Part shown: positions 4,619 to 64,000 of the stretch, piece by piece
How the letters are laid out: the number at the start of each line of letters is the position of its first letter
Numbering within the stretch: the first letter of the stretch is position 1
Source: Amyelois transitella
Taxonomy: Eukaryota > Arthropoda > Insecta > Lepidoptera > Pyralidae
Assembly: GCF_032362555.1 (NCBI RefSeq)
Contig: NC_083525.1
Coordinates: forward strand, 1,659,501-1,723,500
DNA: 64,000 nt
Reading direction: 5' to 3'
Position numbers and translations under genes: made by a program
The notes under the pieces: generated by a model
Seen by the model: the letters and a program-made list of their open reading frames with translations, nothing else
Told to the model about the DNA's origin: nothing
Database searches by the model: none

Positions 4619-7600
4619 GAGTCACACCCTCGACGAGCGCTTCCTGTACTCCCAAGGCGAGGTTCGAAGGGTCCACTGGCATCCCACCTCACTGTCACAT
4701 CTAATGGTGTTGGTTTCAGATAATACTATCAGGTAATTGATATTATGTCTCAAAATTCAAAATTCAAAATTTTTATTCATCATTATAGGATACTTCATAT
4801 CGCTTAATAATTGTCAAAACGTATGGTTTAACAACATTGGTTGACGTCAAATAAATTACGTAAGACTAAGTTTACTGCCGCTTCCAAGGCGTCAGTGCAG
4901 AAGAAGCGGTAACAAACTGCACTGCAGCATTTTTTGTCTCTTGTCTCTGGTATGCTGGAAGAGATTTCTTAAGAAATAAGCAGAACCTATGTACTAAGTA
5001 TTGCAACTTGTGTTCATCATTCTTTTATGTTATCTCATCATTGTCATTTAACCACGTCTCACGTTTTTGAGGTAGACAAAGCCCATTGTCTTAAACTACT
5101 TATAGGCCTCGTTCAGCTGTTAGGCTTAATGATGGAATTTAGATTCAAATAGTGAAAGGTTGCTAGACCATCGCTTAAAAAAAAAGTTTCTTTAAGCCTA
5201 TCCCTTAGTCACCTTTTACGAGATCTTTAAGAAAGAGATTGAGTGGTCCTATTCTTTTTACATTGGTGCCGGATATTCTGCCCGTGAATGGACTCATTTC
5301 TTTAATCGCCTTTATAACATCCACGAGAAACCTGCTCGCCGTTACATATTATTTTAAAATTGCATGCCCTACAGGGTTCATATTGTACCTATTTATAAGC
5401 AGTAACTGTATATGTACAAAAGATTTTGAATTGAACTGAAAAAGATGGAGTTTAGAAATTCTGGAAACCACACGGCCTAGTTCATAAGAATGTCCATCCA
5501 TTCATATAAATAATTTATCATAATTCAGTTTATAAAAATCTAACAACACCACCATCTTTGACGGCCTCTGTGGCGCAGCGGTAGTGCGCTTGTCTGTGAC
5601 ACCGGGGATCCCGGGTTCGAATCCCAGCCAGGGCATGATGAGAAACGAACTTTCTCCGATTGGCCTGGGTCTTGGATGTTTATCTATATAAGTATTTATT
5701 ATAAAAATATATTATCGTTGAGTTAGTATCTCGTAACACAAGTCTCGAACTTACTTCTAGAGGCTAACTCAATCAGTGTAATTTGTCCCGTATATATTTA
5801 TTTATTTTTACAATCACTACACTACAATTAGAAAATTATATTAACAACCATTACCCAAATTCCAGGCTGTACAACATAGCGATAAAAAGCGGTCCGAAAC
5901 TGGTCAAGATCCTGACCATAGGAGCTAAGCCTTGCAGTCAACTCGCCGGCAGGACCATCCTGGACAGTTTGGGCGATACGGCCGTGGACTTCACGACACT
6001 ACCCACGTCCGAAGACCTGCTGATCTTGAGGGGAAACGGAGACGTCTATATGATGCGGTGTGAACTGGACACTAAAAGGTTTGCCATTGATAATAGGTAT
6101 ATCAGTCGATCTATACTAATATTATAAACATACTACAAACATATGTATTCGTCACGTCTATATCCCTTGCGGGGTAGACAGAGCCAACAGCCTTGAAAAG
6201 ACTAAATCGACGGGTGCAAAGTAAAAAGACTTAACTGCAAAATAGCTACTTTACAGTAGAGCAAAAAGAAAGAAAAAGTTTTATATTTTTTTAATGGATA
6301 TGAATTTAATTTTCTAACTTTGCAATTTCTTTGTTTATACTCTAAGGCATATTTTTATTATGTCGGGGTTAGTAATTTGTTGTTAATTTACGAGATTTTG
6401 CAGTTAACCCTATCTACGTTGAATTAAAAATAAAGTTAAATAAGTCAACTGCCTGTTGGTCGTGTATACAAGGGACATTAATTTTATTAAATAAAAAAAA
6501 ATCCTTTTAATTAATTTTATTGAATCTTTAATAAAACGTTTCATTTTAAGTAAAGCAACTTCCAATTCGTATTAATTAACAATATAATATAAGAAACAAC
6601 AAAATAATGCACATAACTTTTTATGCTTCGTTTTTGAAAAATGATGATTAAAGTACAATGAGGTCAAATGAAGTATCATATTTTGTGTAGTAACGTTTTT
6701 GTTAGGAGCAAAATTTTTAAATAACATGTAACATAAACGAGAAACTCTAAACCCGTGAACATAACAGGAAATAACTTTTTTTTCCATAAAGCAAAGATTT
6801 AACTTACATTAATCAGTCTTATTAATCAGTCTATTAATTCAGAATCACAGAAATCAACAAGAAACTTATCTTTTCATGATGATTAATGATTAGCCAAACA
6901 CTAGAATCGACATTCACACTCCAGCAGGAATATAATTACTAGTAATAACAATTAATTAGTTGTTTTCTTGTGTATAAGAATTACATGCATGTTTCAAATT
7001 TTTGTAAAATTCGTGATACCTAAAAGGAATTAAATTTTGCTCACAAAGATTAACCAAGTCATTGTATTTAGAATGTGTTATCATCAAAGTATCATCATAA
7101 CAAACATTGGGTTCGTTTAAAATATTATCTCGACGGGATCGCGTATTTCGTTTTTGTAATAAATCAATTCTCTTAGATTCTTCTTCATGTAAATTATATT
7201 TATAAAATATGGTGTTGGGAAAATCCGATTTTACTACAACTTCACGTATTTTACTCCATTTTACAGTTTCGTTGTCTGTGTTTTTATCCCACTTTAAATT
7301 ATCCAAACATCCTTTGAAGTCAAGAAACATGTTTTGTGTTATATTTATTACTTCATAGGGATCTCCAGAGGTTTTGCACCACCTTACAAGTGTATACCAT
7401 TCTTCCGGACTGTAAATTGATTTTCTTTTGGAAGACTTTTCTATCATTGCGTGTACACTGTCCCCTTCTTGTTGGGTATGCCCCTTTTCTAAGAACCTAT
7501 GACAGATATCGATTTTAAATTTTGAAGAACAGAATGCGTACATAAAAAATACTGCTCGGTTTCTATTCTGTCCGCCGCAATTATCCGACCAAAGACGGAC

Positions 7601-10600
7601 ATCCTTGATTCCTTTTCTAGCAGAATTTTCAATAAAATGAAGCAGGCAACTAGCCACTTCATTGGACCCCCTTTTAGCTATCGTTTCAGGCCACATATAA
7701 CATATTCCTTTTTTAAGACCCATTTCAAATACTGTAAAATTAAATATAGAGAGTTTGCGTTTATAATAAAATGAACTAGTTTCGCCATGAGGAGTAGATA
7801 ATATTTTTTGAAAGTCAAATGTAGCTGAAGTTATAGTTTCAGGATGTGTAGTGGCTTTGATTTTATCTTGTTTCTTTAAAGACCTAGCAACATCTTTATT
7901 TTTCATATGTTCTTCAAACTTCTCGGCGGGTTGAGTATCAGGGCAATTTTTAAATGCAGTACATACATCGCATTGGTCTTTTTTGGGGATAAAAAAGCAT
8001 ATGTTCATTTCCTTGTTAACAATGTCTCGATATTGGCGAACTGTACGTACTCTTTCTAAAATATTATTTTCCTCTGCCCATTCCTTATACAATTGAAACA
8101 TAATTGAGAAGTTCAAGTCACCAGACAGATATAATTTACTTGAATCTTTCCTTATATAATGAGACTCTACGGGCTGGAATGATCTTACATGATCACAAAC
8201 ACCTTGTATGACAGCCGCTGTGTTTATTTTGGTTTTATTATTATGATGACCTCTCAAATCCTTCGAACAGTTACCAGTAGTTTTATCATATTTATCTAAA
8301 GCGCTCATTATAAATTGATTACTGATAGATAAGGTGTTTTTAAACATTGTTTTGCAAACTTTCACACTTCTAGGGCTAGACTTGTCTAAATCGACCGGAA
8401 GATTGTAAGTTACACTGAAATTGCGTTTAGAATCATTTTCGGTTGTTATTCGTTTTTTTGAATAACGTTTGGCATATTTACTGATAAATACCCATTGCTG
8501 TTCATGATTTGAAAGGCCCCAAAAACGATCAAAAATATTTTTTCTTTCCTGAAAAGATATCTTTGAATTACATTTAAATTTACAAACATCACATGGTGGC
8601 TTAATACATTTAGCGGGTTGAATTTTACCGTTTCTTGACAAGTGTTGTTTTCCAGAATTCAACAGTAATTTTCGTTTTATATCAATCCAATTATCTTTGT
8701 TTCTCAATCTCTTCTTTTTCGACCTATCTATATAAAACTGTCGTCGTTTTCGTCCACTTGCATTAGTTGGAGTAGAACATTCACTTGATGCGTCAGCTGC
8801 AGAGGACGCGTCTGTGGTAGTTATTATAGGAGACTGACAAGTGACAACTGACTCAATTGAATCAATGTCGAAATTCACTGATTGACCTGTTTGATTTGGT
8901 TCTAATAAATCATGTGATGGGCTGGAAGTAAATGAATTGTTCTCTGACGGAATAGGTGTGATTGACATTTTTTCAGTGATATCATCTTCAATATGATTAG
9001 CATGAATTTGTGTAGATTGGGAATTAGAAGGCGTCAATATAGGAGGAGAGATACACGGCGTCGTCGGTTCGATTCGATCTGTTTGAGGTTTAGTTTTATT
9101 CAAAACTGATACGCCAAGATCGTCCATAAGTCTAGTCATTACTTCATCTTCCAATGGTTGATGTTTATCGAAAAATCCAGTACTTATATTTGGTAAACTT
9201 TCATTATATTCCTCTTGAAAATTTAAAATTGAATTTTCTGTAAATAAGAACAACAAACCTACATACAAAAAAATTATAAAAATATCCTGACTCTGCCTCC
9301 TGATTCCGTATAAACTAGTAGTTTCAATTAGAGGTTTCGATGCCTTATAAGGCTATATATTTATGATTTACTTAACTATTTTGCAGTAAAAATATAACAA
9401 TGTAACTTTTTGAATTTGATATTTCTAAGTCAACGGCCTATTAAATTTGATTTCTTTGAGAGTGTTGAAATTTGCGTTTTATGCAAGGCCCTATAATTTT
9501 TTTTTTAATTTAGAAGTATTTTTTAGTAGCGTCAATTGATTGTAAACCTAACTACGAGTACTTATATGATTTTAATAAATTACTACTTGATATCTCAACA
9601 CAGACTTGACAGAGGGACAAACGAACAAACAACCAAATTATCCTATAAGAGTTTCTTTTTTTGAGGTAGGGAACCCTAAAAATAATATATTTGTATAAAA
9701 ATAATTACGGAGTAAATCGTAACATCTACTATAACAGCGAAGTAGAAAGAGTTAAATGGCAGATGTTCGTTTATGCGCCGGAACGTAAGTAAAAACGAAA
9801 TCACATACATTGTTATTCATTCAAAGACAAAAATAAGAGAAATAGAACTTCAAAAAGTATAATAAACTAGAATACATACCAGCCACAGTTTCACAATTAT
9901 ATTTTGTGAGGTTTAATAGCTCGTTTGTGTCTGTGATAGCAATTTGTTTTCTTGTTTTTCCTAATTTTACCAACAGCTTGCGTCGTTCTTTATTCATTTT
10001 AAGGATTATAACAATGAACTCAAATGAGGACTACAATGAAAACCTCGAAATATCACTGATATCCAACAAAAACCCTCACTTAACCTAAAAATGTGCGCTA
10101 GCCGGCGAAGTTCGTGTCAACTGACTGATAACGTTTTGTGTTTGCGCGCGGGAAGTCCCGCGCCCCGCGTCAATGCGGCCAACGTAACTTGGTCGCATTC
10201 ACTACGTACTATTTGAAAAAAATGTGTAGTTGGCTTTTTGTACGTACGAAAATAAATTGAAATAAAGTGATTTGAGAAAAAAGAAAAATGTCACATTGTA
10301 GAGCATTTTTTAATTAAAACGATAATGATAAAAACCGAAAATCGTGAATTTTGTAGTTGACACATTTTACTTTGCACCCGTCGAAATGGCCACGTTCAGC
10401 TATTTGGCTTAATGATAGAATTGAGATTCAAATAGTGACAGGTTGCTAGCCCATCGCCTAAAAAAGAATCTAATATTATAAAGCTGAAGAGTTTGTTTGT
10501 TCGAACGCGCTAATCTCAGGAACTACTGGTTCGAATTGCAAAAATTCTTTTTGTGGTGATTAGACTATTTATCGAGGAAGGCTTTAGGCTATGTAACATC

Positions 10601-13600
10601 ACGCTGCAACTATAAGAAGCGCGGAAATAATGGAAAATGTGAAAAAAACGGGATATATTATTCATCCTCGAGGTCTTCAATGATGCCTAAAATGACTATT
10701 TTACGCGGACGAAGTCACGGGCACAACTACTCTATTTATAAATCTTTTCTGTTACTACTCAGTAAAGTCAGTCAACGCAAATCCCAAAAGCTGGTTCTGG
10801 TGATTTGAAATTTGGCGTTTAATCCGAATGAAACGCATATAAGATATTATTCTGCGCAGAACTAAATACATTTTAAACACCAACTATGTGTTCACAAAAT
10901 TCTACACATACGTATACACGTATGTATGTATGTTTTTCATATTCCAGCGGGGTCAAACCGATCCTGAGCGGTCCACTGGCTATGTATCCACCGGCCGACG
11001 ACAACTACGGCTCCGAGTCGTGCTCCATCGCGGCCGTGGGCGCGCACAGCCCCGCGCTGGTGGTGGTCGCCACTTGCAGCGCCGCGCTGTACCACTGCCT
11101 GCTGCTGCCTCACGTGAGTGTGTGTTCTTGTGTTTGCTGTTTCACTGTCTTTCTGATGAATGAAATGAATGAAATGAATGAAATGAATGAAATGAATGAA
11201 ATGAATGAAATGAATGAAATGAATGAAATGAATGAAATGATGAATAAGGTGAATGAGACGTATGAAATGAATGAGATAAATGCACCGTCACGGCCGTGGG
11301 CGCCCACAGCCCCGCGCTGGTGGTGGTCGCCACTTGCAGCGCCGCGCTGTACCACTGCCTGCTGCTGCCTCACGTGAGTGTGTGTTCTTGTGTTTGCTGT
11401 TTCACTGTCTTTCTGATGAATGAAATGAATGAAATGAATGAAATGAATGAAATGAATGAAATGAATGAAATGAATGAAATGAATGAAATGAATGAAATGA
11501 ATGAAATGAATGAAATGAATGAAATGAATGAAATGAATGAAATGAATGAAATGAATGAAATGAATGAAATGAATGAAATGAATGAAATGAATGAAATGAA
11601 TGTGAAATTAATGAGATAAATGCACCGTCACGGCCGTGGACGCCCACAGCCCCGCGCTGGTGGTGGTCGCCACTTGCAGCGCCGCGCTGTACCACTGCCT
11701 GCTGCTGCCTCACGTGAGTGTGTGTTCTTGGGTCCCACTGACTCATTGTCTGAATGAGACAAATGAAATGAATGAAATTAATGAGATGAATAAGGTGAAT
11801 GAGACGAATGAAATTCCGCTTCTTCTACACATGCCTTTTAGAAGAGGTAGTAGTTATAGTTAGATTCAAGTGATGTGACGTCAATAAGTGATACCTTGTG
11901 TCTGAAAATATATCTATTCTATTCTGTGTGTTTCCGATGAATGAGACCAATGAAATGAATGGAACGAATGAAATGAATGAGGTGAATGAGACGAATGATA
12001 TGAATGAGGTGAATGAGACGAATGAAATGAATGAGGTAAATGAGACGAATGAAATGAATGAGGTGAATGAGGTAAATGAGACGAATGAAATGAATGAGAT
12101 AAATGCACCATCACGGCCGTGGGCACACACAGCCCGGCGCTGGTGGTGATCGCCACTTGCAGCGCCGCGCTGTACCTACCACTGCCTGCATACCGTCCAC
12201 CTGAGGGTGGGAGGAAACTAAAAGTATATTAAAACTCACCAACCTTACTTCACTTGCAGACGTCGGAAAAAGATGACAGCGACACTCACGCCCTCTACGT
12301 GGTGGAAGCTGTTGAACTGAACATCGCTCTCAATCCGGACCAAGACATGGAGCATTCCTATCCGGTGCATCTGTACCCGGTAACAATGATAGAATAGTAA
12401 CAATGATAAACATAGATTGATTGTTACGCAAACAATCTGCAATCTTGCATGTTGAGTATAGGTAGTGTAAACTTTTAGTTAATCGGATGTAACTAATGAA
12501 ATCAACGTTTTGTTTTTTGTGTGCCGGGGTAACTAAAAAGTCATCCAAGATATGATAATCGTAATTATAAAATTAAAAAATATTAAATTAATTTCATCTT
12601 ATGTTCTCGCATATACGTGCATAATTCATGAAGCAGATTTATTTTTGAACGCCTCAAGCGCAATGCACATACATATATACGAGTATATATCAAGTCAAAT
12701 CTTAACTTTAACTTAAATAACCAATAATGTTAAATCAAGTTTTAATGATGATAAATAAAATACCTTCCGAAAGAATATTCTACAAATCAAAATATTTGAC
12801 TAAATATGTGGTTCCCGGCACCAATAGAAAAGAGAATAGGAATACTCCATCTCTTTCTCATTGATGACGTAAAAGGTGTCTTAAAGATAGACAAACACTT
12901 GGGATTCTTGGGGACACAATGATAGAATTGAGATTCAAATAGTGACAGGTTGCTAGCCCATCGCCTAAAACGAGAATCTCGTGTTTATAAGCCAATCCCT
13001 TAGTCGCCTCTTACGACATCCGTAGGAAATGAGATGGAGTGGTCCTATTCCTTTTTTTTAGTGGTGCCCCACACGGCTTTCAATTCTATCATTAAGCCAA
13101 ATAGCTGAACGTGGCCCATCAGTTTTTTCAAGACTGTTGGCCCTGTCTACCCCGCAAAGGATATAGACGTGACCGTATGTATGTATGTTTGTTTCAGTGC
13201 ACGTCGAACACGTACGCGTGCGTCCACGCCGGCGGGGTGCACTCCGTGAGCGTGCCGCTGTTGGCTCACCTCAGAGACTACGCCCTCGCCGATGATGGTA
13301 CTCGTAAGATTCTACATGCATACATATAGACATACATACATGAATACACACATACATGCATGCTTACATACATGAATACACACATGAATGCATACTTACA
13401 TACATGAATACATACATACATGCATACATACATACATGAATACACACATACATGCATACTTACATACATGAATGCACACATACATACATTCATGAATGTA
13501 TGTATGAATACATACATGAATAGATAGATGATAGATAATTCATTTATTTGATTTGCTACACACAATTTACAATTTCATATGAAATACAAATTAATTAGGG

Positions 13601-16600
13601 TGTGAGTTGCAGCAATACAAAAAGGTCACAACTCAACGTATTTATTGCTATAGAGCAATACGCTTTTTTTTCAGTTATGACCTAGGTGCTAGTGCAGGTC
13701 AATCAGCGCACGTAATAAACAAATAAACATAAACAAACAAAGAATCGTGTCGTGACTTAAAAGTTTTAATTGTATAAGTGTGATAAATGTAGCGGCTTAA
13801 TAACCAAAAGAGTATCCCAAAATATTTGAAAATTCGATACACGCCCCGGCATAATACATGCATACATATAAACATTCATACGTTCATACATACATTCATA
13901 CGTACATACATATAGACATACGAGTACATGCATACATACATCACGCCTATTTGACAGAGGCGTAGGCAGAGACCACATCTTTCCACTCGCCACGATCCCT
14001 GCATACTTCCTTCGCTTCATCCAAATTCAAAATTCTCTTCTTGCAAGCTCCTCAGTTTCGGGTTTTTACTTTTTCTAGAAGGTCTTCGTAAGATTATGTT
14101 ACAGTATTATCTCTGTGGCGCAGTGGTAGTGCGCTTTCCTGTGTCGCAATTTGCCCCGGGTTCGAATCCCGGCGAGGGTGGGATAGAAACGAACGTCTAC
14201 TGATTGGCCTGGGTCTTTGAGATGATTATATAAATACTTTTTACGAATTATTGTATCGTTGAGTAAGTATCTCGTGACACAAGTCTGGGACTTGCTTCGA
14301 GACTAACACGGTATGTGTAGTTCGTCCCGTATTTATTTATTTACATCAAATATTCGATTGACGACAGCCAAGGAGAAAAAGAAACTAGGTATCGTGTGGT
14401 TCCTGTTACTTAAATAGAATTGGAGCACTCCGTCTCTTACTCGTGGATGTCGTAAAAATCGATTAAGAAAATGGTTAATAAGCTTTGGATTTCTTATAAT
14501 AGCCGATGCACTGTTATAAATCCCAAGTTTATAAGCCTATCCTTCAGTTCCATTTTACAACATCCATGGTAACGAGACGGTCCAGTTATTTGTATTATTT
14601 TTTAAATATTATCAGAGGAATCAGAAACGGCCCTATCCTCCTTATGGTCCAAAACGATCGTAGCGCGCCATCTCGTTGGAAAATAATGAATATATATATA
14701 TCTTTAATATTAACAGAGGAATTAGAAACGGCCCTATCCTCCTTATGGTCCAAAACGAGCGTAGCGCGCCATCTCGTTGGAAAATAATGAATATATATAT
14801 ATCTTTAATATTAACAGAGGAATCAGAAACGGTCCTATCCTCCTTATGGTCCAAAACGAGCGTAGCGCGCCATCTCGTTGGAAAATAATGAATATATATA
14901 TATCTTTAATATTAACAGAGGAATCAGAAACGGCCCTATCCTCCTTATGGTCCAAAACGAGCGTAGCGCGCCATCTCGTTGGAAAATAATGAATATATAT
15001 ATATCTTTAATATTAACAGAGGAATCAGAAACGGTCCTATCCTCCTTATGGTCCAAAACGAGCGTAGCGCGCCATCTCGTTGGAAAATAATGAATATATA
15101 TATATCTTTAATATTAACAGAGGAATCAGAAACGGTCCTATCCTCCTTATGGTCCAAAACGAGCGTAGCGCGCCATCTCGTTGGAAAATAATGAATATAT
15201 ATATATCTTTAATATTAACAGAGGAATCAGAAACGGTCCTATCCTCCTTATGGTCCAAAACGAGCGTAGCGCGCCATCTCGTTGGAAAATAATGAATATA
15301 TATATATCTTTAATATTAACAGAGGAATCAGAAACGGCCCTATCCTCCTTATGGTCCAAAACGAGCGTAGCGCGCCACCTCGTTGGATAATAATGAATAT
15401 TTATATATATATCTTTAACATTAACAGAGGAATCAGAAACGGCCCTATCCTCCTTATGGTCCAAAACGAGCGTAGCGCGCCACCTCGTTGGATAATAATG
15501 AATATATATATATATCTTTAATATATCACCCCGGCCGGCGGAAAAGCGACGCGTAAGATTCAGAGGTCAACGACACAATTCATTCAGCTGAGCGATCTCG
15601 ACAACTCTGTACTTTACTTGATCTTGATTTACTAGAAAAATAATTTATTTTTCAGACATTTATTTACATGTTTAGTTTTAATTTCTTTTTGTAGTATTGG
15701 TAGTTAATAAAGCGTGTGACGTAGTTTTTGAGGGTTTTTTAAATTTGAAAATGATGACGTTTAATTTAAATAAAAATAGGCTCAAACGGCTCAGAAGCAT
15801 GGGTATAGTCTATGTTTAAAAGGATGCAGTTGTTTTAAATGTCACCCTGTATATATATATCTTTAATATTAACAGAGGAATCAGAAACGGCCCTATCCTC
15901 CTTATGGTCCAAAACGAGCGTAGCGCGCCACCTCGTGTGCACGGCGGGCGCGCGCGGCCGGCCGCCCGCCGCCCTCGCCGCGCTGGCCCCGCCGCTGCCC
16001 GCCGCGCTCGTGCTGTGCCCGGACGGCCGGCTGCTCTACAGGTCAGTGGCTTGTGCGTCATTAGGGGACTCCGTTCTTAAAGTCAGTGGCTTATAGGTAC
16101 ATTAATAGGGGACTACGTTATTTAGGTTAGTGGCTTATAGGTACATTACTAGGGGGCTCCGTTCTTAAGGTTAGTGGCTTATAGGTACATTACTAGGGGA
16201 CTACGTTCTTTAGGTTAGTGGCTTGTACATCATTAGGGAACTCTCTGGGGCAGTGGCATATACAGCATTTGGGGACTCCGTTCTTTGAGGTGCTACATGA
16301 GGGGTCTACATTTTTTAAGTCAGTTGCTTATAGGTACATTACTAGAGGACTCCGTTATTTAGGTTAGTGGCTTGTACAACATTAGGGAACTCTCTGAGGC
16401 AGTGGCTTGTACATCAGTAGGGGACTCCGTTCTTTGGGTCAGTGGCTTATAGGTACATTAATAGGGAACTCCGTGCTTAAAGTCAGTGGCTTATAGGTAC
16501 ATTACTAGGGGACTCCGTTATTTAGGTCAGTGGCTTGTACATCATTAGGGAACTCTCTGGGGCAGTGGCAAATACAGCATTTTGGGGATCCCGTTCTTAA

Positions 16601-19600
16601 GGTCAGTGGCTTTTACATCATTAGGGAACTCTCTGGGGCAGTGGCATATACAGCATTTGGGGTTCTTTGAGGTACTACATGCGGGGACTACGTTTTTTGG
16701 GTCAGTGGCTTGTACATCATTAGGGGACTCCATTATTTAGGTCAGTAGCTTATAGGTACATTACTAGGGGACTACGTTCTTTAGGTCAGTGACTTGTAGG
16801 TAGGTACATTACTAGGGGAGTCCGTCATTTAGGTCAGTGGCTTATAGGTACATTACTAGGGGACCCCGTTATAAAAGTCAGTGGCTTGTACTGTACAATC
16901 ACTAGGGAACTCCGTTTTTTGGGTCAGTGGCTTGTAGGTACATTACTAGGGGACTCCGTTCTTTAGGTCGGTGGCTTGTATATCACTAGGGGACTCCGTT
17001 CTTAAGGTCAGTGGCTTGTAGGTACATTACATCTGTACATCACTAATCGACGTCACAGCCATTCATTGATTCATATAATCACATATATATCCGTTACGGG
17101 GTAGATAGAGTCATCAGTTTTGAAAGACCGACAAGCCACTTTCAGTTCTTAGCTTAATGTAGAATTGAGATACAAAAAGTGACAGGCTACCAGCCCATCG
17201 TCTAAAAGGAGAATCCCAAGTTTATAAGCCTATCCCTTAGTCGCCTTTTACGACATCCATAGGATAAAAATGGAGTTGTCTTATTCTTAACTTAACCGGA
17301 AGAAAGGTTGATAGTCCGTGCCATTGGTGATGGTAGGGTTAGAATAGAATAGATTTTTTTTCGAAATTGGATACAAGGTATCACTTTTTGACGTCACATC
17401 ACTTACATCTCATTAAAATTACTTAGTAGGTTAGTAGTTAGTAGATTAGGTTCCTCTTAACATTCAATTGGATTAAAATAACCAACATTTTGTATTTCAT
17501 AACAATTACAGAACTCTGGAACCTTACGATCTAGAAGAGGAGCTTTACAAAGAGCTGCAACTGAAGAATCCAGCTTTGGAAGACGATGATATCGCCAGTA
17601 TCCTTAAAGAGGTAAAAATTATACGCTAAATCTTTCTCTGTAAAGGCTGCAATGCTATGGAATTTCCCTTGGACACTAATTATCAACATACCTCAACATA
17701 TTATTCAAAAATAATGTATTTAAGTTCCTGTTCCGTCTTGTTTTCGGCACCATTACATAAGAAAGAATAGGACTACCCCATCTCTTTCCATGGATGTCGT
17801 AAAAGGCGACTAAGGGCTTATAAACTTGGGATTCTTCTTTTAGGCGACAGACTAGCAACTTGTCACTATTTGAATCTCAATTCTATCATTAAGCCAAACA
17901 GCTATAGGTGGTCTATCAGTCTTTTTAAGACTGTTGGTTCTGTCTACCCAGCAAGGCGTGATCTATGTATGTGTGTATGCTTTTTAGCTTATTTTGTGTG
18001 TTGTGGACCGATAAGCTACATTCAGCTATTCGGCTTGGTGATAAAATAAATAGTAAAAAAAAACACAAATAAAACGTAATATATAATATTTCAGCGTCAA
18101 AAAATGTCGTTCACCGCCATCATACAGGAGATCCTCACTCGAGACGTGTCGCAGCCGATCCTGAACGTGAACAAAGCTGAAGAACCCAGCCCTAAGGAGT
18201 CCTTAGAGGTAATTATCCAATAAGTTATATATTTCTTGAGAAATTACATATGAAAAGTTTTAAGTTTAATTTTTAATATGGGACATTTCAACGTCACTTA
18301 ATAATATCTTTTGGTTTCACATCATTGGTGGACGTCAAATGAATTTCTTAAAAGTTTACTGTCGCTTCCAAAGCGTCAGTGCAGAAGAAGCGGTAACAAA
18401 CTGCACTGCGGCATTTTCTTTGATAACATCAACTTCAAAATCAAAACTTAGATTAGAAATATGGGCGAGGAATACATGTAATATATTATTATATGTATTC
18501 CTCGCCGTATATTATTATTATATGTATTCCTCGTATATAATATATTATTATATATATATAATTATTATATATTATATATATATATTATTATATATATATA
18601 TATTGTTCATTATATTGATTCGAACCCGGGACCTCCGGTGTCACAGACAAGCGCACTACTGCTGCGCCACAGAGGCCGTCACCGAGCTCCGCTCAGTCAC
18701 CCAGGTACTGATTTTAATATACTGAACTCTTTTTTACCCTTGTTATCTTTTCAGATAGTAACTCAAGCTACGATGAAACTCCGCGCGGAATACATGTCGC
18801 GGCAACAACGCGCGTGCGATGCGTTGCACCGCAAGTTGCACGCTCTCCAGGCGCTCATGAAACAACACCAGTCCTGGGCACAGGACTTACAGGTGGGTAC
18901 TAACTAGACACAAGAATAGAATAGAATAGATTTATTTTCAAAATTGGATACAAGGTATCACTTATTGACGTCACATCACTTAAATCTAATTATAACTACT
19001 GCCGCTTCCAAAGCGCATGTGTAGAAGAAGCGGCGGAACAAACTACACTGCAGTTAACGATCTATCACCTCCTGGCTTTAGTCCCGGTCGCATCCTCACC
19101 ACTCTGGAGAGGAGCTCGGGGTATGCCTTTGACCGTGGATCCTGGATTGGGTGAGTCAGGTTTTTACACGAAGCGACTCCCGTCTGACCTCCGCAACCTT
19201 TGCAGGGGAACCTAACCCGTATTGGGTCGATCATGGTTACACATCCAGTGGCCTGAATGTGCAGGTTTCCCTTACCATACGAGCATCGGTTAGTATTCAA
19301 ACTAATGTACATTATTTCGGAAATAGTCATTGGTACATGGCCGAGGTGGGATTCCAACCTGTGCCTTTCTGTGCATCACGCATTTTAACCTGGCACTTTA
19401 CCGATACGACCACCGACAACCACAGATAACTACAAATAGAAAAAAAAAACTTTTTTGACATCAAAAATACATGTACGGTTCTTTTTGGCGGGAACTCAAA
19501 CGTCAAGTTTTTTGTACATACATACATTCTTATTATCACGTCTATATCCCTTGCGAGATAGACAGAGCCAACAGTCTTGAAAAGACTGATGGGCCACGTT

Positions 19601-22600
19601 CAGGTATTTGGCTTTAAGAAAGAATTGAGATTCAAATAGTGACAGGTTGCTAGCCCGTCGCCTAAAAGAAGAATTCCTAGTTTACAAGCCTAACGCTTAG
19701 TCGCCTTTTACAAGAGGATATATACGTGATTATATGTATGTTTGTATGACGGACGAGAGAATGCAATAATCTCTTTGCATATCTATACTAATATTATAAA
19801 GCTTAAGAGTTTGTTTGTTTGTTTGAACGCTCTAATGTCTAGAACTACTGGTTTGAATTGAAAAATTCTTTTTGCGTTGAATAGACCATTTATCGAGGAA
19901 GGCTTAGGCTTTATAACATCACGCCGCAACTTTAAGGAGCTAAGAAATAATGGAATATGTGAAAAAAAAACGGGGATAATTATTCATCCTTGAGGGCTTC
20001 AATGATGCCCAAAATAACTTTTCCACGCGGATGAAGTCGCGGGCACAGCTAGTTCTTGTATAATATTGTTTATCAAAATTTCAGGCTGAAATTAATGACG
20101 CCCATTTGCAGTCCGCCGTGTTGCAAGAGAAATGTGCCTTGGCGGAGAAGCACCAAGACGATATTAAATATAGGTGTGTACTCAATACATACATACATAT
20201 AGTGACGTCTATATCCCTTGCGGGGTAGACAGAGGCAGTGCAACAAAAATGTGTCTAGTCTTTGCTTAAACTAATTTGTTTGTTACTTTTTCGCAGTTCG
20301 AATCACTGGACTTATTTTCATTAAATTTCACATTTATGAACATAAGATGACGCCAATGACAAGCGAAAATTAGAAAATAAATTATTTTATTCATTCATAA
20401 AATCATGTTTATATCCCTTTGTTGGGGGTAGACAGAGCCAGCAGTCTTGTAAGATAAGCCACGTTCAGCTGTTCGCCTAAATGATAGAATTAAGATTCAA
20501 ATAATGTCAGGTTGCATTGAATCCAAAATTAATAAGCCAATCCCTTAGTCGCCTTTTGCGACATCCATTGTAACGAGTCCTATTCTTTTTCCAGGACACT
20601 AATTAATATAATTTGATCATAATAAGTTCAAATGATTTCGTCCTCAGATGTTCGGCGGTGATTCGCAAAATGCGCGGCAGTACCGCCACCAGCGCCGCTG
20701 AGAGAGAGTTGTTGGCTGAACTAACGCGGTACAAGGGCATGGGGGAGAGGCTGAGGGAGAGGATCAACATGCTTCAGCTACATGCCAGGAACAAGACTGA
20801 CGAGGTGAGACTTTTATTCAATTCTACTTACAATTTCTTAGATATTTTTAATAAACATTTTACCAGATGTTTATTAAGAGTTGTTGGCCGAACTAACGCG
20901 CTACAAGGGCATGGGGGGGAGGCTGAGAGAGAGGATCAACATGCTTCAGCTACATGCCAGGAACAAGACTGACGAGGTGAGACTTTTATTCAATTCTACT
21001 TACAATTTCTTAGATATTTTTAATAAACATTTTACCAGATGTTTATTAAGAGTTGTTGGCCGAACTAACGCGCTACAAGGGCATGGGGGGGAGGCTGAGA
21101 GAGAGGATCGACATGCTTCAGCTACATGCCAGGAACAAGACTGACGAGGTGAGACTTGTATTCACGAATTTTACTTACAATTTCTTAGATATTTTTAATA
21201 AACATTATACCAGATGTTTATTAAGAGTTGTTGGCTGAACTAACGCGCTACAAGGGCATGGGGGAGAGGCTGAGAGAGAGAATCAACATGCTTCAGCTAC
21301 ATGCCAGGAACAAGACTGACGAGGTGAGACTTGTATTGAATTCTACTTACAATTTCTTAATTTTAATAAACATTATACCAGATGTTTATTAAGAGTTGTT
21401 GGCTGAACTAACGCGCTACAAGGGCATGGGGGAGAGGCTGAGAGAGAGAATCAACATGCTTCAGCTACATGCCAGGAACAAGACTGACGAGGTGAGACTT
21501 GTATTGAATTCTACTTACAATTTCTTAATTTTAATAAACATTTTACCAGATGTTTATTAAGAGTTGTTGGGTGAACTAACGCGCTACAAGGGCATGGGGG
21601 GGAGGCTGAGAGAGAGGATCAACATGCTTCAGCTACATGCCAGCAACAAGACTGACGAGGTGAGACTTGTATTCAGGAATTCTACTTACAATTTCTTAGA
21701 TAATTTTAATAAACATTTTACCAGATGTTTATTAAGAGTTGTTGGCTGAACTAACGCGCTACAAGGGCATGGGGGGAGGCTGAGAGAGAGGATCAACATG
21801 CTTCAGCTACATGCCAGGAACAAGACTGACGAGGTGAGACTTGTATTGAATTCTACTTACAATTTCTTAATTTTAATAAACATTTTACCAGATGTTTATT
21901 AAGAGTTGTTGGGTGAACTAACGCGCTACAAGGGCATGGGGGGGAGGCTGAGAGAGAGGATCAACATGCTTCAGCTACATGCCAGCAACAAGACTGACGA
22001 GGTGAGACTTGTATTCAGGAATTCTACTTACAATTTCTTAGATAATTTTAATAAACATTTTACCAGATGTTTATTAAGAGTTGTTGGCTGAACTAACGCG
22101 CTACAAGGGCATGGGGGGAGGCTGAGAGAGAGGATCAACATGCTTCAGCTACATGCCAGGAACAAGACTGACGAGGTGAGACTTGTATTCAGGAATTTTA
22201 CTTACAATTTCTTAGATATTTTTAATAAACATTTTACCCAGATGTATATTAAGAGTTTATTCACGAATGGATTAGTCGACTCTTTTTTCATGTTGACCTT
22301 AAACTATTCACGTTTGTTATTTTGGCAAATAAAATATAAAATTACATACATATAATCACATTGCGGGGTAGACAGTCATAGCAGATGTGAATAGGACCAC
22401 TCCATATCTTTCCCATGGATGTCGTAAAAGGCAACTAAGAGCTGGGCTTACAAACTTGGTATTCTTTTTTAGACGATGGGCTAGCAACCTGTCACTATTT
22501 GAATCTCAATTCTATAATTTAGCCAAATAGCTGAACGTGGCCATTCAGTCTTTTCAAGACTGGTGGCTCTATCTACCCCGCAAGGGTTATAGACGTGACC

Positions 22601-42496: not shown

Positions 42497-43620
42497 TTTA
42501 TTGACCAATTAGAAATTTAAATAAGAGAAATTACAAGATCGCTGTAGTGAATCGGCCTCTGCTATTGATGAAAATTTATGTTAAATAACTGGATAATTGC
42601 GTGATTGTAGTATTTGCTTAAGAAATGATGTTTATAAATTTCTTGTTGAATTGAAAGTTATCCAGAAAAATATTAAGTCACAATGACATCAATGACAAGC
42701 CGACAGCGGGACAATCTTGTTGACAAATGTGACGGACAGTAGATTTTGACTTTACTTTTTTCAAAACGTTCCTTATCATGTCATCATCCTTATCATACTT
42801 TATATGCAAAAATAAATAAATAAATTACTACTTATTAAAATGAAAGTTGATAGTCCTGGGATGTACGTACAATATGTACATACCTATTTATGTTAAAAAT
42901 GTTTATAATTTTTTACTCAAAAAACTCCAGAATTTTAACGGAATTCCACATGTTCTGGTCTTATGTGGAACGAAATGTGTACTAAGTTTAAATAAAAAGT
43001 TGTAATTCTCTATGGCAAGAATGTTGTCATAATGGCAAATATTTCCCATAAAAAGTGATTATAGTAAACTCGGTCGGGCTGCTAAACGCATACAAAACCG
43101 GTTATTGTCGAAATTTTTGTGAAAAGCTAATTTTCATGACCTTCCTGACTTCTTAATACTTGTTTATTTGGTTCGTTGCCAAAAATATACTTACAGAACA
43201 TTGAAATTACTTAACGGGTTAATACCTAAGTGTCATACTCCGTGGGGGGACCTGGTGACCTGCAGTACATGTGTTTTTGACGTCTACACCAGATCTCTAC
43301 ATCATAAATAATTTATTTGATACTGTTATTAACTTCAAAATTAATTATAACTAGATTTGAGGTTTGTGCTAAACCTACATCGATTGTGCTGTGGAGTGAA
43401 TAAAGATGTTGTCATTTTTCTCTCCCCTCATAGACCGGACGTCTGATGTTGTAACAAGGGTAGTCGTATACATAATTATGGCAACATTGATCTGATTTCC
43501 TCTATTTTCTATGGCTCAGGTGTGCGAGTAGAAAAGAAAAATTTAATGGTGTTGTGTGTGACACATATACGTAGAAAAAATTTAGTGTAAGATTATCACA
43601 TTGGCACCAACGGCAGGGAA
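42497..43620. promoter_or_regulatory. Vps29-egl shared upstream region
   Basis: 1.1 kb between divergent start codons with none of the common repeats. It must hold the 5' UTRs of both genes unless further upstream exons exist; no specific promoter motif is claimed. Confidence 0.4.
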
Positions 43621-46185
43621 ATGGAATCAATGGAATATGAGCTCGCCAGAAACCTCACTCTGTTGTTTTTCGTGGAACGCCTGCTCGACAAAGGCGAGCC
43701 GCGTACGTTGCACGATCTTTCCTGCCAGTTTGGTGCCAAGGGTTTCACGAAGGAGATGCGACAGATCGCTGGCGGGTCGCAGTCGGGATTAAAGAAGTTC
43801 CTGGCCCAGTACCCGGCGTTGTTCAACATAGACGGGGACTATGTTGATATCAACACATTCCAGAAGCATCCTAGTGGGGTTGGCGCATCGTCCAATAACG
43901 ATTACATCGAAGAGGCGAAGGAATACTTCGCGAGCAAGATGATCCAGTACGGGGAAGGTACAGAAGTTCCGATTAAAAGTCTCCTTGGTCACCGCAGCCA
44001 GGCGTCGCCGCAAGTGCGTCACATCTCCGGGCAGCGCATCAAGGAGTTCAAGGAATTCCTTATGAAGCACCCGGACACCTTCCAAATTATCGAAGACAAC
44101 GTCGTTCTAGTCAGTGAGAATCATAGGAGAGGTAACACACACAGTAATTCTGAACAATTTCACAACCTACCCGTAGCTAATATAAACACAGATACTGCCC
44201 AGCAATTGTTGGACTACGTCGCCCAATGTATAGAGGCAAAAGGCCCTGTTATGGTCGATCAACTCTTCCATCTTATCGTATCTCGTTTCCCTCAAGAATA
44301 TTGGTATCAGATGTTCAAATCGCCTGCTGATTTGAGTGCCTTCCTTAAGTTATTCTCAGATAGCTTCCACGTTCAGTCAAATCTGGTGACTCTTATTAGT
44401 AAACCAAAAATTCCTGTAATGTATTTAAATGCAAAATCTAAAGTGAAGACTGAAGCACCAAAGCCTGTGGTGGAAGAGAAGTCGTTATCGCCGGCTCCAC
44501 CTACAGTAGTGAGCCCTACCCCGTCTGATGGTAAACAAAGTCCAGCAAACAGAATACTCAGCCCCATAGAATCTCCCCGTGGTCCTCAGGCAAATATAGC
44601 AAATCAAACCTTAAAACAGAGGATCAATTCTATTGTTATAAAAAATTTAGCAGAAAACATGGTCAGGGATAGGGTTAACAATCATTTGAATGCCCGCAGT
44701 TCTGAAGAAATGAATGGAACACCAAGCATAAGGAATAATATGATGGGTGATGCGTGGCGGCAAAAAGTGCTACAGTGCACCGCTGTCATCGCTAGTGTTA
44801 GAGAGTGCGCCACACTCATGGATAGTATTATGCTCCCTAAACGTAACACAAAAGCCATAGTGTCCTTCGACTGTGAGGGAATAAACTTGGGCTTGAAGGG
44901 AATATTAACGTTATGTCAGATTGCGACCATGAATGGCGAAGTTTACATATTGGATATTATGGCATGCCCTGGAATGGTTATGGAAGGTAAAATAAAAGAT
45001 TTACTGGAAAGTGAAAATGTTGTCAAAATCATACACGACTGCAGGAATGACTCTGTCAATTTGTATAATCAATTTGAGATTACTTTAAAGAATGTTTTTG
45101 ATACACAAGCGGCCCATGCTGTGTTGCAGTTACAGCAACAAGGTGTGCCTGTTTACAAAGTTAAAAATTTGAGCCTCAATGCATTGTGTGAATTGTACAA
45201 TGCCCCTATGAACCCAATGAAGGAACAACTAAAAAATGTTTACCGCAGGGATCAACGCTACTGGGCTAGAAGACCGTTGACAAAAGATATGATTATTTAT
45301 TCCGCCTCAGATGTGCTTTCATTAGTCAATCCTGCTATATATGCTTATATGTCTAGCAATATAAAGCCAGAAAACCAACAGCTTTTTGAGGAATTGAGCA
45401 ATGAACAGGTATTCATGCACATCCAGCCTACAGAAGTCAAATTAAGGAAAAGACAGAGGAAGATCAATACAGAAGTTGGGGAGCTCAAACAAAAATTAGC
45501 AGAAACTACTAAAAATATTGTGTTGAGCAACAGAGAGATAAGATTGCTTAGGTATTTGGAACTCACAGAAGAAGAAAAGGAAAAATTAAAAGGATGTCAC
45601 AAAATATCGAAGAAGTTGGAGAAATTGGAAGCTATTGGCCAAGATAAAGATTCTGACTCAGATGACGATGAAAGAGAAAACGAAATGGCCAGCTTAGAAT
45701 CCAATCCTTCCGACCCTATCTCTTCCCCACACTCTACTCAACCTCCAAGCCTCACAGAATCCATGCAAATGATGGACGAAATATTGTCAGACACAAATAT
45801 GGACAAAGTTGAAAAGATAAATCGTTTGGAGGCCATTTTGTCTGCCGTGGCGCCGCTTAGTGGAGAACTCGAAGACAAGTTCTCGCAGACTATGGAACAG
45901 ACACTGCCATTGCTCAAGAATAAAGATTGGTCCAACCTGAGCCAAATTTTGAACATAGGGGAGCCTGACAGAAAGAACTGTGACTGCAGATGCCATAGTT
46001 CCAACTATGACGACCCCAAATGCAATGATCTCAATGAAGTGAAGAAATCAGAAGTGGGATCTCAGACTCTCAGTACAGGGGACATAGTGATTACAAGGAT
46101 CCACTTCAGGGAAGAAGATAAAGCTAACGAAAGGATCCTCGACGCGAGTCCGGCCAGTAAACGTGCCGGGATAAACATGTCTTGA
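43621..46185 (+). CDS. egl: Egalitarian, dynein/BicD RNA-transport adaptor, 854 aa
   Basis: RNA-binding adaptor linking localised mRNAs to Bicaudal-D and dynein light chain. The N-terminus (MESMEYELARN, TLHDLSCQFGAKGFTKEM) matches the insect Egl BicD-binding region, so the first ATG is used. A DEDDy 3'-5' exonuclease-like domain spans about residues 410-585, with D417 and E419 (FDCEG), D473/D477 (HDCRND), and Y560 with D564 (YSASD) all kept. From family knowledge the exonuclease fold serves mainly as an RNA-binding platform and catalysis appears dispensable. The C-terminus holds an LC8-type dynein light chain motif, GSQT at residues 813-816. The CDS is one uninterrupted exon; Drosophila Egl is about 1,000 aa, so this protein is somewhat shorter. 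Confidence 0.95.
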   Translation: MESMEYELARNLTLLFFVERLLDKGEPRTLHDLSCQFGAKGFTKEMRQIAGGSQSGLKKFLAQYPALFNIDGDYVDINTFQKHPSGVGASSNNDYIEEAKEYFASKMIQYGEGTEVPIKSLLGHRSQASPQVRHISGQRIKEFKEFLMKHPDTFQIIEDNVVLVSENHRRGNTHSNSEQFHNLPVANINTDTAQQLLDYVAQCIEAKGPVMVDQLFHLIVSRFPQEYWYQMFKSPADLSAFLKLFSDSFHVQSNLVTLISKPKIPVMYLNAKSKVKTEAPKPVVEEKSLSPAPPTVVSPTPSDGKQSPANRILSPIESPRGPQANIANQTLKQRINSIVIKNLAENMVRDRVNNHLNARSSEEMNGTPSIRNNMMGDAWRQKVLQCTAVIASVRECATLMDSIMLPKRNTKAIVSFDCEGINLGLKGILTLCQIATMNGEVYILDIMACPGMVMEGKIKDLLESENVVKIIHDCRNDSVNLYNQFEITLKNVFDTQAAHAVLQLQQQGVPVYKVKNLSLNALCELYNAPMNPMKEQLKNVYRRDQRYWARRPLTKDMIIYSASDVLSLVNPAIYAYMSSNIKPENQQLFEELSNEQVFMHIQPTEVKLRKRQRKINTEVGELKQKLAETTKNIVLSNREIRLLRYLELTEEEKEKLKGCHKISKKLEKLEAIGQDKDSDSDDDERENEMASLESNPSDPISSPHSTQPPSLTESMQMMDEILSDTNMDKVEKINRLEAILSAVAPLSGELEDKFSQTMEQTLPLLKNKDWSNLSQILNIGEPDRKNCDCRCHSSNYDDPKCNDLNEVKKSEVGSQTLSTGDIVITRIHFREEDKANERILDASPASKRAGINMS

Positions 46186-62000: not shown

Positions 62001-64000
62001 AGTCAGGTTTTTACACAAAGCGACTCCCGTCTGACCTCCGCAACCTTTGCAGGTGAACCTGACCCGTATTGGATCGATCACAATTACACATCCAGTTGCC
62101 TGAATGTGCAGGTTTCCTCACGATGTTACACAGCTACAGAGACCGCCAAGTTTACCACGTTAGGGATATGCGTTATACGTGTTAATAATTTTTAATTTGT
62201 GCCGTGTGGTTCCCGGCACCAATACAAAAAAGAATAGGACCACTCCATCTCTTTCCCATGGATGTCGTAAAAGGCGACTAAGGGATAGGCTTATAAATTT
62301 GAGATGCTTCTTTTAGGCGATGGGCTAGAAACCTGTCACAATTTGAATCTCAATTCTATCGTTAAGCCAAATAGCTGAACGTGGCCTTTCAGTCTTTTCA
62401 AGGCCGTTGGCTCTGTCGACCCCGCAAGGGATATAGACGTGACCATATGTGTTAATAATTTCCCAGATGCTCGACACATTCCCGTGGGAAACTTTGCCCA
62501 TACTGAATCATCACCCCGTGTCTAGGATGGAAAATGTGCACTTCATATACAACCTGTACAAAATACACGAGAAACGGTTTGTGGACGGATACTTCGTCGG
62601 CAGCACTGAAGTCGGACGATACGTCATCAATCCTGGTGGGTCATCATCATAATCATCTACATAATATAATCATCATTCACCTATGACAATAGTTTGAAAA
62701 ATAAAAAATGATATTACTTAATTCGTTTACTGAACATGGCCTATTGGTCTTTTCGAGACTGTTGGTTAAGTCTACCCCGCAAGGGATATAGACGTGATTA
62801 TATGTATGTATTTAAGTATACTTGCCACAATCCCTGTATATTTCATCATTCTTCATGCATCACTTTGGTCTTTTCGAGACTGTTGGTTCTGTCTACCCCG
62901 CAAGGGATATAGACGTGATTATATGTATGTATGTAAGTTTACTTGCCACGATCCCTGTATATTTCATCATTCTTCATGCATCACTTTGGTCTTTTCGAGA
63001 CTGTTGGCTCTGTCTACCCCGCAAGGGATATAGACGTGATTATATGTATGTATGTAGGTATACTATGTATATGCATCACTTCACTTCACATTAATAACAC
63101 TCTTCCAGTCAAGTTCGTCTGTTATTGTTGAAAAATAAAAGTGTAGGTCTTGAAATTGAAGACGAGGCGATAGTGGATCATAGCAAGTTTAAATAATGTA
63201 AACTCTACCTATCTCTCTAAGAAGGAGGCACGATAATATATATACAGGGTGTCTGGAAAATCGCGTTACATATTTCAGGACGTAGTGAATCATGAACACG
63301 CTCAACTTTTTTTAAATATAAAATCTACAAAATACTCATTAGTTTAAAAAATAATGATAATCTAAATAGTGCACTAAGTGTCTATCTAGCCGTTCTCGAG
63401 ACTCGTCTTTTCGCTTCGCGCCGCACGCGTGTGTTGACATTTCTTGTTTAAATCCCCTATTTTTCTAATGATTTGGCACGAGAATAAGATACCGAGCGCC
63501 CCCTTGTAGGTAATATATAATATATAATGTATTATATGGTTCCCGGCACTAATGCAAAAAAGAATAGGACCACTCCATTTCTTTCCCATGGAAGTCGTAA
63601 AAGGCGACTAAGGGATAGGCTTACAAACTTGGGATTCTTTTTTAGGCGATGGGCTAGCAACCTGTCACTATTTGTATCTCAATTCTATCATATAGCCAAA
63701 TAGCTGAACGTGGCCATTCAGTCTTTTCAAGACTGTTGGCTCTGTCTACCCCGCAAGGGGTACATAGACGTGACCATATGTATGTATGTATGTAATATAT
63801 AACGCGATTTACCAGACACCCTGTATATGTATGTATGTATATAATCACAGGGTCATTTCCAACCTTATCCCCTTGTCACAGAGAAGAATCTGGATCGTAT
63901 GGAGAAGCGGATGGTGTCGTTCGTGCAGTACTGGTGCGGCGGCTGGAGCGGATACATCGGGGAGCCGCCGCCGCCCGATTGCTTCCTACGCTTCCTTTCC
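56031..64000 (+). CDS. Sse: Separase (C50 protease), 3' partial
   Basis: Cysteine protease that cleaves cohesin to release sister chromatids. Exons: 56031-56148, 56519-56653, 56890-56956, 57712-57884, 58439-58606, 59162-59304, 59944-60071, 61270-61624, 62467-62635, 63882 to the edge. All phases agree, giving 525 codons in the window. The C50 domain begins near HPVILIVDE (exon 8) and continues through FPWETLPIL and HHPVSR (exon 9, residues about 434-450) and the NPEKNL/YWCGGWSGYIGEPP region (exon 10); the catalytic His and Cys lie beyond the edge. With the remaining catalytic part the protein would be roughly 650 aa, like the short Drosophila Sse rather than the about 2,000-aa vertebrate separase. 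The start has a fitting context (AAAAATGG). Confidence 0.9.
56370..56480 (-). mobile_element. Family A SINE 5' fragment
   Basis: Complement of the 5' part only (AAGCTTATCCCTTAGTCG to ACCACACAGCACC), about 40 bp before separase exon 2. Confidence 0.6.
57000..57590 (-). mobile_element. Two family A SINEs in separase intron 3
   Basis: Diverged copy 57000-57228 and near-consensus copy 57319-57590; the second is among the best preserved in the window. Confidence 0.75.
58086..58336 (-). mobile_element. Helitron-like element (Lep1-type)
   Basis: GCCCGCGACTTCGTCCGCGT to AATATTAGTATAGA, in separase intron 4. Confidence 0.7.
58612..59130 (-). mobile_element. Family A SINE fragment and full copy
   Basis: Tail-proximal fragment 58612-58715 and full copy 58862-59126 ending 35 bp before separase exon 6. 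Confidence 0.7.
59370..59912. mobile_element. Family A SINE fragment and Helitron-like element
   Basis: Antisense family A 3' half (59370-59490), then a Lep1-type element 59665-59912 (+) ending GTCGCGGGCACAGCTAAT, 32 bp before exon 7. Confidence 0.6.
60085..60260 (-). mobile_element. Family A SINE copy, rearranged
   Basis: Tail and body present with the middle deleted. 60335-60515 holds LINE debris in both orientations (GGAGGTACCTTGATCAAAT; GGTACTCTTGACCTGACCC). Confidence 0.55.
60535..61032. mobile_element. Solo LTR, 498 bp, inside a family B SINE
   Basis: Begins TGTAGTGG and ends CCCTACA (TG...CA with 5-bp inverted ends TGTAG/CTACA), flanked by AGTA at 60531-60534 and 61033-61036. Removing it rejoins the family B SINE body (TATCTATATAAGTA with TATTTATTATGAAATATAGT). 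No internal coding region, hence solo. Strand not determined. Confidence 0.7.
61683..61900 (-). mobile_element. Helitron-like element
   Basis: CTAGAGGCCGCCCGCGACTT to TTATAATATTAGTAGGA; same family as 29241. CTAG terminus seen. Confidence 0.7.
61910..62130 (-). mobile_element. Family D SINE part
   Basis: Matches 19060-19280 (CCGGTTGCATCCTCACCACT, CGACTCCCGTCTGACCTCCG); the tRNA-like head is missing. Confidence 0.6.
62192..62448 (+). mobile_element. Family A SINE with 13-bp TSD at separase exon 9
   Basis: Flanked by GTGTTAATAATTT at 62179-62191 and 62449-62461. The right duplication leads straight into CCCAG, the exon 9 acceptor, so the insertion lies within 20 bp of the exon. Confidence 0.82.
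62720..63060 (+). repeat. Tandem 121-bp units of SINE tail plus LINE piece
   Basis: CTTGCCACRATCCCTGTATA, TTCATCATTCTTCATGCATC, TTTTCGAGACTGTTGG and the family A tail occur twice in full (from about 62820 and 62941), with a preceding partial at 62730. Confidence 0.75.
63245..63823. mobile_element. CAGGGTG-type TIR element carrying a SINE
   Basis: Ends are inverted repeats (CAGGGTGTCTGG, then AAATCGCGTTA with few changes, about 27 bp), bordered by TA at 63243-63244 and 63824-63825. The TA duplication and end sequence suggest a mariner/Tc-like non-autonomous element. A sense family A SINE (63536-63792) lies inside it. No transposase is seen. Confidence 0.7.

Follow-up and report, generated by a model that had tools for sequence, protein, structure and literature searches.

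Tandem arrays that copy exon edges in Nup88 and in other genes of the moth Amyelois transitella

We analyzed a stretch of 64,000 nucleotides of the genome of the moth Amyelois transitella (referred to below as the window), through which the gene Nup88 runs. The window corresponds to C21:1659501-1723500, where C21 is the contig NC_083525.1, in a genome of 327 Mb in 33 contigs; positions without further indication are those of the window, and seven-digit positions are those of the contig. Nup88 possesses four tandem arrays, each of which overlaps or abuts a splice border, and the lengths of their repeat units are unrelated. The initial annotation had claimed the same, and all four arrays were found both by Tandem Repeats Finder (TRF) and by reading the copies one by one. 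It had also treated the arrays as a matter of this one gene. That part did not hold, because the separase gene, an ODAD1-like gene and a helicase gene on contig C12 carry arrays of the same class. That is, multi-copy arrays at exon edges are a process of several genes and not a property of Nup88, and the process resembles a recurring side effect of errors in DNA copying more than a device special to Nup88.

TRF reported repeats in Nup88 at 11031-11539, 14605-15524, 16062-17030 (several overlapping rows) and 20705-22257. The first array, A1 (11031..12206; plus strand, as are all Nup88 exons and arrays given here), was delimited by TRF and copy-by-copy reading, its last copy being placed by eye. 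It starts within the exon 10948..11113, approximately the 5th, which was located by a row of the PF10168 search (G000:C21:1670434-1670766), and the borders of which were read from the sequence. The unit of A1 consists of the last 83 nt of this exon, the donor CAC|GTGAGT, and intron sequence rich in a 9-bp simple repeat, (ATGAATGAA)n. The original is followed by three spare copies with donor spacings of 260, 340 and 487. The donors are intact at 11114 (the real donor), 11374 and 11714, and the fourth copy, which begins at about 12113, is decayed and has CT in place of GT at 12201 (by eye).

Two arrays flank the putative exon 15876..16041, approximately the 8th. When this exon was joined to the next one, a Pfam match was not found, and it was read as belonging to Nup88 from its open frame and splice signals. 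A2 (14605..15524; TRF, copy-by-copy reading and genome search) is composed of nine 101-bp units, each consisting of the intron end, the acceptor and the first approximately 60 nt of the downstream exon. Its nine spare acceptors extend from 14616 to 15428, and the tenth copy is the exon itself, whose real acceptor at 15876 lies about 320 bp from the array. A3 (16041..17035; TRF, unit-by-unit reading and genome search) consists of 22 units with a mode of 44 bp. The first unit carries the real donor of the exon, AG|GTCAGT, and GT is kept in 19 of the 22 units, giving 18 spare GT sites. A3 merely abuts its exon, whereas the border is contained in the units of A1, A2 and A4 and in those of the ODAD1-like, separase and helicase arrays.

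The last array, A4 (20705..22257; TRF, copy-by-copy reading and genome search), lies at the end of the exon 20648..20804, approximately the 13th, which was identified from a joined translation and has its real donor, GAG|GTGAGA, at 20805. The unit of A4 is made up of the last approximately 100 nt of the exon, the donor and approximately 70 nt of the intron. There are nine donors (one of them real) from 20805 to 22176, with spacings of 168-175 and the common 9-mer GAG|GTGAGA, and the exon part of two copies has a 1-nt deletion. As is usual in minisatellites and other tandem arrays, the copies found by TRF are head-to-tail, near-identical and regularly spaced, A1 and A3 being just roughly regular. 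In all edge arrays that we read, the spare copies sit on the non-coding side. The measured spacings or unit lengths are 260-487, 101, 44 and 168-175 bp, where the initial annotation gave 260-480, 101, about 42 and about 171 bp. The exons that it numbered 3, 6 and 11 are approximately the 5th, 8th and 13th of 15.

Many near-identical copies beside splice sites could also be produced by introner-like mobile units, or by a satellite landing at splice sites. We searched the 327-Mb genome, skipping very common words and scoring the best candidates only, and in these searches the units of A2, A3 and A4 had no match outside the Nup88 locus. The A2 search returned the nine array copies and the exon itself, and a query from the end of A1 (12000-12600) returned its own locus, plus weak hits to the simple repeat of this array. 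An introner would be the same element in many genes, and these units were not found outside Nup88; moreover, apart from A3, the units hold coding sequence of their own host exon. We thus regard a mobile or satellite origin as extremely improbable.

The gene next to Nup88 on the right is separase. Its identity rests on Peptidase_C50, which matched two joined exons at an E value of 5.1e-12 (0.0089 for the first exon alone). The window end cuts a separase exon (63882..64000, plus strand, with its start placed by eye), and the array lies outside the window at C21:1724729-1725119, where sequence comparison revealed that the exon end and the donor are copied. The 66 bp around the separase donor (1723479-1723544) recur four times at 75-94% identity, together with one 29-bp piece, in 1724790-1725119. 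The statement of the initial annotation that no other gene in the window has such an array depends on where the window ends, since the separase array is 1.2 kb beyond. Between the separase exon and its array there is an insert of approximately 1.2 kb with 26-bp inverted ends (C21:1723545-1724710).

On the strand opposite to separase we found ODAD1 exons, one of which matched PF21773 with an E value of 1.9e-14, while a second was under the cut-off. The last 59 nt and the donor of an exon ending at 1732930 are repeated, so that there are one real donor (1732929) and three spare donors (1732728, 1730931 and 1730728), spaced by 201, 1797 and 203, and a retrotransposon-like insert splits the array. 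A Pfam match was not found for this exon, and its neighboring exons suggest that it is part of the ODAD1-like gene. A further array with units of about 156 bp (C21:1729559-1730085) lies to the right of the window on what reads as the last exon of this gene. Its units seem to span the coding end, the inferred stop codon and the 3' flank, and they contain no splice site.

The third case came from a Helicase_C search that was not aimed at any gene. It returned eight rows on C12, mostly at a spacing of 195 bp, and the locus (L048) proved to be a helicase exon (PF00271), for which the PDB matches shown were largely DEAD-box proteins by name; rows of the DEAD domain lie approximately 3 kb upstream. 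The array has a 195-bp unit and nine donor sites, namely the real site, another that follows a truncated copy, and seven that follow complete copies of the last 104 nt of the exon. The same exon also has a 70-bp duplication containing its acceptor.

Long near-identical arrays are where genome assemblies fail, and an assembly artefact should be considered for this reason. In these arrays, though, substitutions and indels distinguish the copies, the inserts split the ODAD1-like array and part the separase array from its exon, and approximately 320 other bases lie between A2 and its exon. An artefact therefore seems highly unlikely.

We consider that tandem duplications which crossed exon edges were tolerated and expanded in several genes, and we assign a probability of about 0.6 to this reading. 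In the proposed mechanism, a tandem duplication would by accident extend over a coding exon's edge, and expansion would follow. The first duplication would join the intron (or, at the end of a gene, the 3' flank) back to the interior of the exon, and a spare exon end with its donor and the start of the intron, or the mirror form consisting of intron end, acceptor and exon start, would land on the non-coding side. The original edge would stay in its exon, and the protein would remain intact while the spliceosome uses the full exon's own site. Such a duplication would be tolerated because the protein is unchanged when the spare copies lie in the intron or the 3' flank, and it could become an array through slippage or unequal exchange. 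The position of the spare copies on the non-coding side is expected, because any tandem duplication across an edge gives such polarity.

Tandem duplications ordinarily arise through short homology or template switching and grow when their copies exchange sequence, and this would suffice here. In A4 we noted by eye that AGAGTT stands at the start of the unit in the exon and again directly after the last copy, as is expected if the first duplication used 6 bp of homology. We infer that the arrays began by short homology and grew by exchange, and that the decoys, that is, the spare splice sites, are ignored. A replication or repair problem, which had been suggested earlier, fits the arrays if it is not confined to Nup88; the idea of a fragile site peculiar to Nup88 was dropped in view of the arrays in the other genes.

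The most serious alternative is chance combined with post hoc picking: arrays arise anywhere, and they often hit borders in the 3' half of Nup88, which is dense in short introns. In order to judge this, we calculated how often one random unit placed in the compact 3' half would overlap a border. The probabilities for the four units were 0.42, 0.23, 0.11 and 0.33, and that for all four together was 0.0035. For the whole of Nup88 (131 kb, 28 edges), four of seven arrays are at edges against 0.25 expected (p = 3.6e-5), or at least three of seven if the abutting A3 is not counted (p = 1.2e-3). These p values are post hoc, the locus having been chosen for its border arrays.

We also surveyed the surrounding 258 kb (C21:1495001-1753000), which held 33 clusters of local duplication. 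We kept the 13 clusters whose best hit had no copies more than 20 kb away in the region, and dropped one of them (at 1739845, two tRNA genes by eye). The clustering had fused the array of separase with dispersed repeats, and it was entered separately. Seven of the resulting 13 arrays are at coding edges. The six counted as off-edge are those at 1611281, 1620968, 1636524 and 1711301, as judged by eye, and those at 1523017 and 1534525, as assumed. When the four arrays of Nup88 are removed, three of nine remain at edges. The p value lies between 0.008 and 0.27 if 60 to 250 edges are assumed, a range that leaves room for chance.

Seven family searches elsewhere in the genome gave 629 rows (145, 90, 21, 51, 93, 85 and 144), which are the best candidates per search and in which two helicase families overlap in genes. 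By eye, these rows contained a single series, that of the helicase, as might be expected if edge arrays are accidental. The value of 1 in 629 probably underestimates the frequency, because this screen detects an array only when the unit holds enough domain codons, and the Nup88 search listed none of the copies as a row of its own. In addition, many of the rows for p450 and receptors represent long open frames in which borders are few. Against chance, the next two genes and the helicase from the unaimed search repeat the pattern of Nup88, and two of these three have two edge arrays each. Taken together, an excess of edge arrays over chance is suggestive but not proven, and we regard chance alone as a possible but doubtful explanation. 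C21 may contain a local hot spot, or the family screen may be too blunt.

Two other loci in these searches drew attention. A kinase pair on C4 (locus L049) seemed to have a duplicated exon, but its sequence was without internal duplication. At G000:C31:3424032-3424556, two adjacent Ion_trans matches to the same part of the profile lie 264 bp apart, and they are perhaps mutually exclusive exons.

The initial annotation had named, as one possibility, that the arrays are a way to add alternative exons, and the reading frames speak against it. Using each downstream donor with the exon's own acceptor, we followed 42 decoy donors, that is, 2 in A1 (the intact spare ones), 21 in A3 (including three units without GT), 8 in A4, 3 in the ODAD1-like gene and 8 in the helicase gene. 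The reading meets a stop in 40 of the 42 and shifts frame in the other two. All nine acceptors of A2 lead to a stop after 22-23 codons when the preceding exon is read as ending one base into a codon. The analysis thus covered 51 decoys, drawn from A1 to A4, the ODAD1-like array and the donor array of the helicase.

We then considered possible pseudoexons within the arrays. None of 19 has a length that is a multiple of three, and 15 of the 19 have a stop in the frame tested. In A4, all eight, of 109-110 nt, hold an in-frame stop, the exon copy being preceded by TTTTACCAG or TTATACCAG. All three in the ODAD1-like gene, of 70 nt, hold one as well, and the eight of the helicase (seven of 121 nt and one of 86 nt) are out of frame, with a stop in four. 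The decoys and pseudoexons thus give stops or frameshifts, and for this reason the arrays covered, as read from their sequence, do not appear to be a set of spare exons. Mutually exclusive exons were rejected as well; these keep both splice sites and the frame, and the units here include only one exon border.

The stops could instead be the purpose of the arrays. That is, the decoys might compete for U1 or U2 or act as poison exons, tuning the output of the gene via nonsense-mediated decay, or U1 bound there might shield the introns. The stops in all the pseudoexons of A4 and of the ODAD1-like gene would suit this idea, as would the splice signals kept in the decoys and, weakly, exon parts that are less variable than intron parts. 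On the other hand, the units are unrelated between borders, one A1 copy is without a donor, and the stop-edge array of the ODAD1-like gene has no splice site to regulate. We therefore think that a regulatory use is improbable, although less so than a mobile origin or an artefact.

Several results weigh against tolerated duplication as the whole explanation. First, the exon parts of the spare copies vary less than the intron parts: the variable sites are 6/96 and 4/49 in A4, 2/57 and 11/104 in the ODAD1-like array, 10/102 and 16/75 in the helicase, and 3/60 and 3/28 in A2 (exon and intron part, respectively). Pooled, these are 21/315 exon sites against 34/256 intron sites (Fisher p = 0.0099), although p is 0.73, 0.14, 0.052 and 0.38 for the single arrays in the same order, and the sites are linked. 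Such a difference, which is too weak to build on, might come from gene conversion by the functional exon, from a smaller number of mutable motifs in exons, or from weak selection. Constraint on the copies as coding sequence was dropped as an explanation in view of the exon-part changes, which include nonsynonymous ones (by eye), and of the 1-nt deletions. Second, the decoy splice sites have hardly decayed. The 9-mer of A4 is identical in all eight spare copies, and the last eight bases of the acceptor are kept in eight of the nine A2 copies; a young age of the arrays would explain this. Third, homology at the junctions is clear for A4 only, and is about 2 bp or less in the helicase and ODAD1-like genes (by eye). 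Finally, three adjacent genes on C21 call for a local factor when set against one series in 629 rows elsewhere, and a regional factor on C21 may be involved.

As to the structure of Nup88, the gene starts outside the window, near C21:1552420, and is approximately 131 kb long. We count 15 exons with 28 edges, 13 of the exons being in the window, and this count includes the exons at 12260, 13199, 15876, 17511 and 23829, which were placed by open frame and splice signals alone. Exons 1 and 2 are located outside the window, and the first intron is 86 kb. A family search of the genome gave five PF10168 rows along C21, at 1552440, 1638904, 1664117, 1670434 and 1677577. Within the window, approximately the 3rd exon lies at 4620..4733 (PF10168 125-171 and sequence), and approximately the 4th at 5880..6082, with approximate borders, from its open frame and a match to PF10168 177-255 that is under the curated cut-off (19.0 bits, E 3.6e-4). 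The joined translation of four 3' exons, including 20648..20804, matches PF10168 526-683 with an E value of 5.3e-10.

Some further features were observed in and around the gene. A Nup88 intron contains a minus-strand open frame of 798 codons (6959-9352) that matches DUF7869 (PF25273, E 3.6e-9) and is perhaps of mobile-element origin. In the first intron, a 99-bp duplication (C21:1620968-1621161) starts approximately 8 bp past an exon-like GAG|GTGAGT, and it may be an edge array as well, belonging to a nested gene. To the left of the window, a few kb upstream of exon 1, there is a 14-kb satellite with 173-bp units (C21:1534525-1548989), whose orientation, judged by its consensus, seems to flip near 1542676. 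In the window at 43591-46185, an open frame of 864 codons matches the Egalitarian winged helix and 3'-5' exonuclease domains.

Should edge arrays prove frequent, they would serve as natural constructs for the study of how the spliceosome chooses a site, whether by nearest site, by exon definition, or by both. Under scanning models, opposite outcomes are predicted for donor arrays and acceptor arrays, and in two cases, Nup88 and the helicase, a single exon carries both. Such arrays might also be a halfway form on the path by which tandem duplication leads to new introns and exons, and gene finders and RNA mapping may misread the introns that hold them. A bolder idea is that, in this lineage, coding edges act as hot spots where tandem arrays are born much more often than chance predicts, and that the spliceosome passes over many near-equal sites. 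We hold this idea only tentatively and think it rather unlikely. If it were true, many introns would contain long series of splice sites that equal or nearly equal the real one, as in Nup88 with its eight spare donors in A4, nine spare acceptors in A2 and 18 spare GT sites in A3, and these would offer a natural experiment on site choice, as well as a lasting supply from which new introns and poison exons could arise.

We compared the arrays with known systems. In tandem exon duplication, including mutually exclusive exons, whole exons are copied with both splice sites. The moth arrays resemble it in that exon sequence is repeated in the neighboring intron, and differ from it in that only one exon edge is copied. 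They resemble intronic minisatellites and satellites in their head-to-tail, near-identical copies, but their unit starts inside a coding exon (in A3, at the exon end) and carries a splice site. Multi-copy edge arrays were not found in searches of an open-access library, judged by title and the start of the abstract among the matches listed.

Closer parallels are known for single duplications. In the RdRp gene of potato, a two-copy tandem duplication across an intron-exon boundary gave a new spliced intron with RNA support (PMC4974935). Like that duplication, A2 comprises the end of the intron, the 3' splice site and the beginning of the exon, and the splice signals of the parent are inherited. 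In contrast, the moth arrays reach nine or more copies at some borders, occur on the donor and acceptor sides and in several genes, and, where followed, give no productive reading. In Drosophila, novel introns arose where a region of coding sequence that includes a proto-splice site was duplicated in tandem (PMC2891723; PMC3296678). There, too, tandem duplication makes new candidate splice sites in insect genes, but an exonic piece is duplicated and a new intron results, whereas the moth arrays multiply borders already present, within an intron that was itself already there. Arrays are not known from these potato and Drosophila reports (PMC4974935; PMC2891723; PMC3296678). Duplication across an exon-intron border is a known mechanism, and what seems to be new in the moth is the scale of the arrays.

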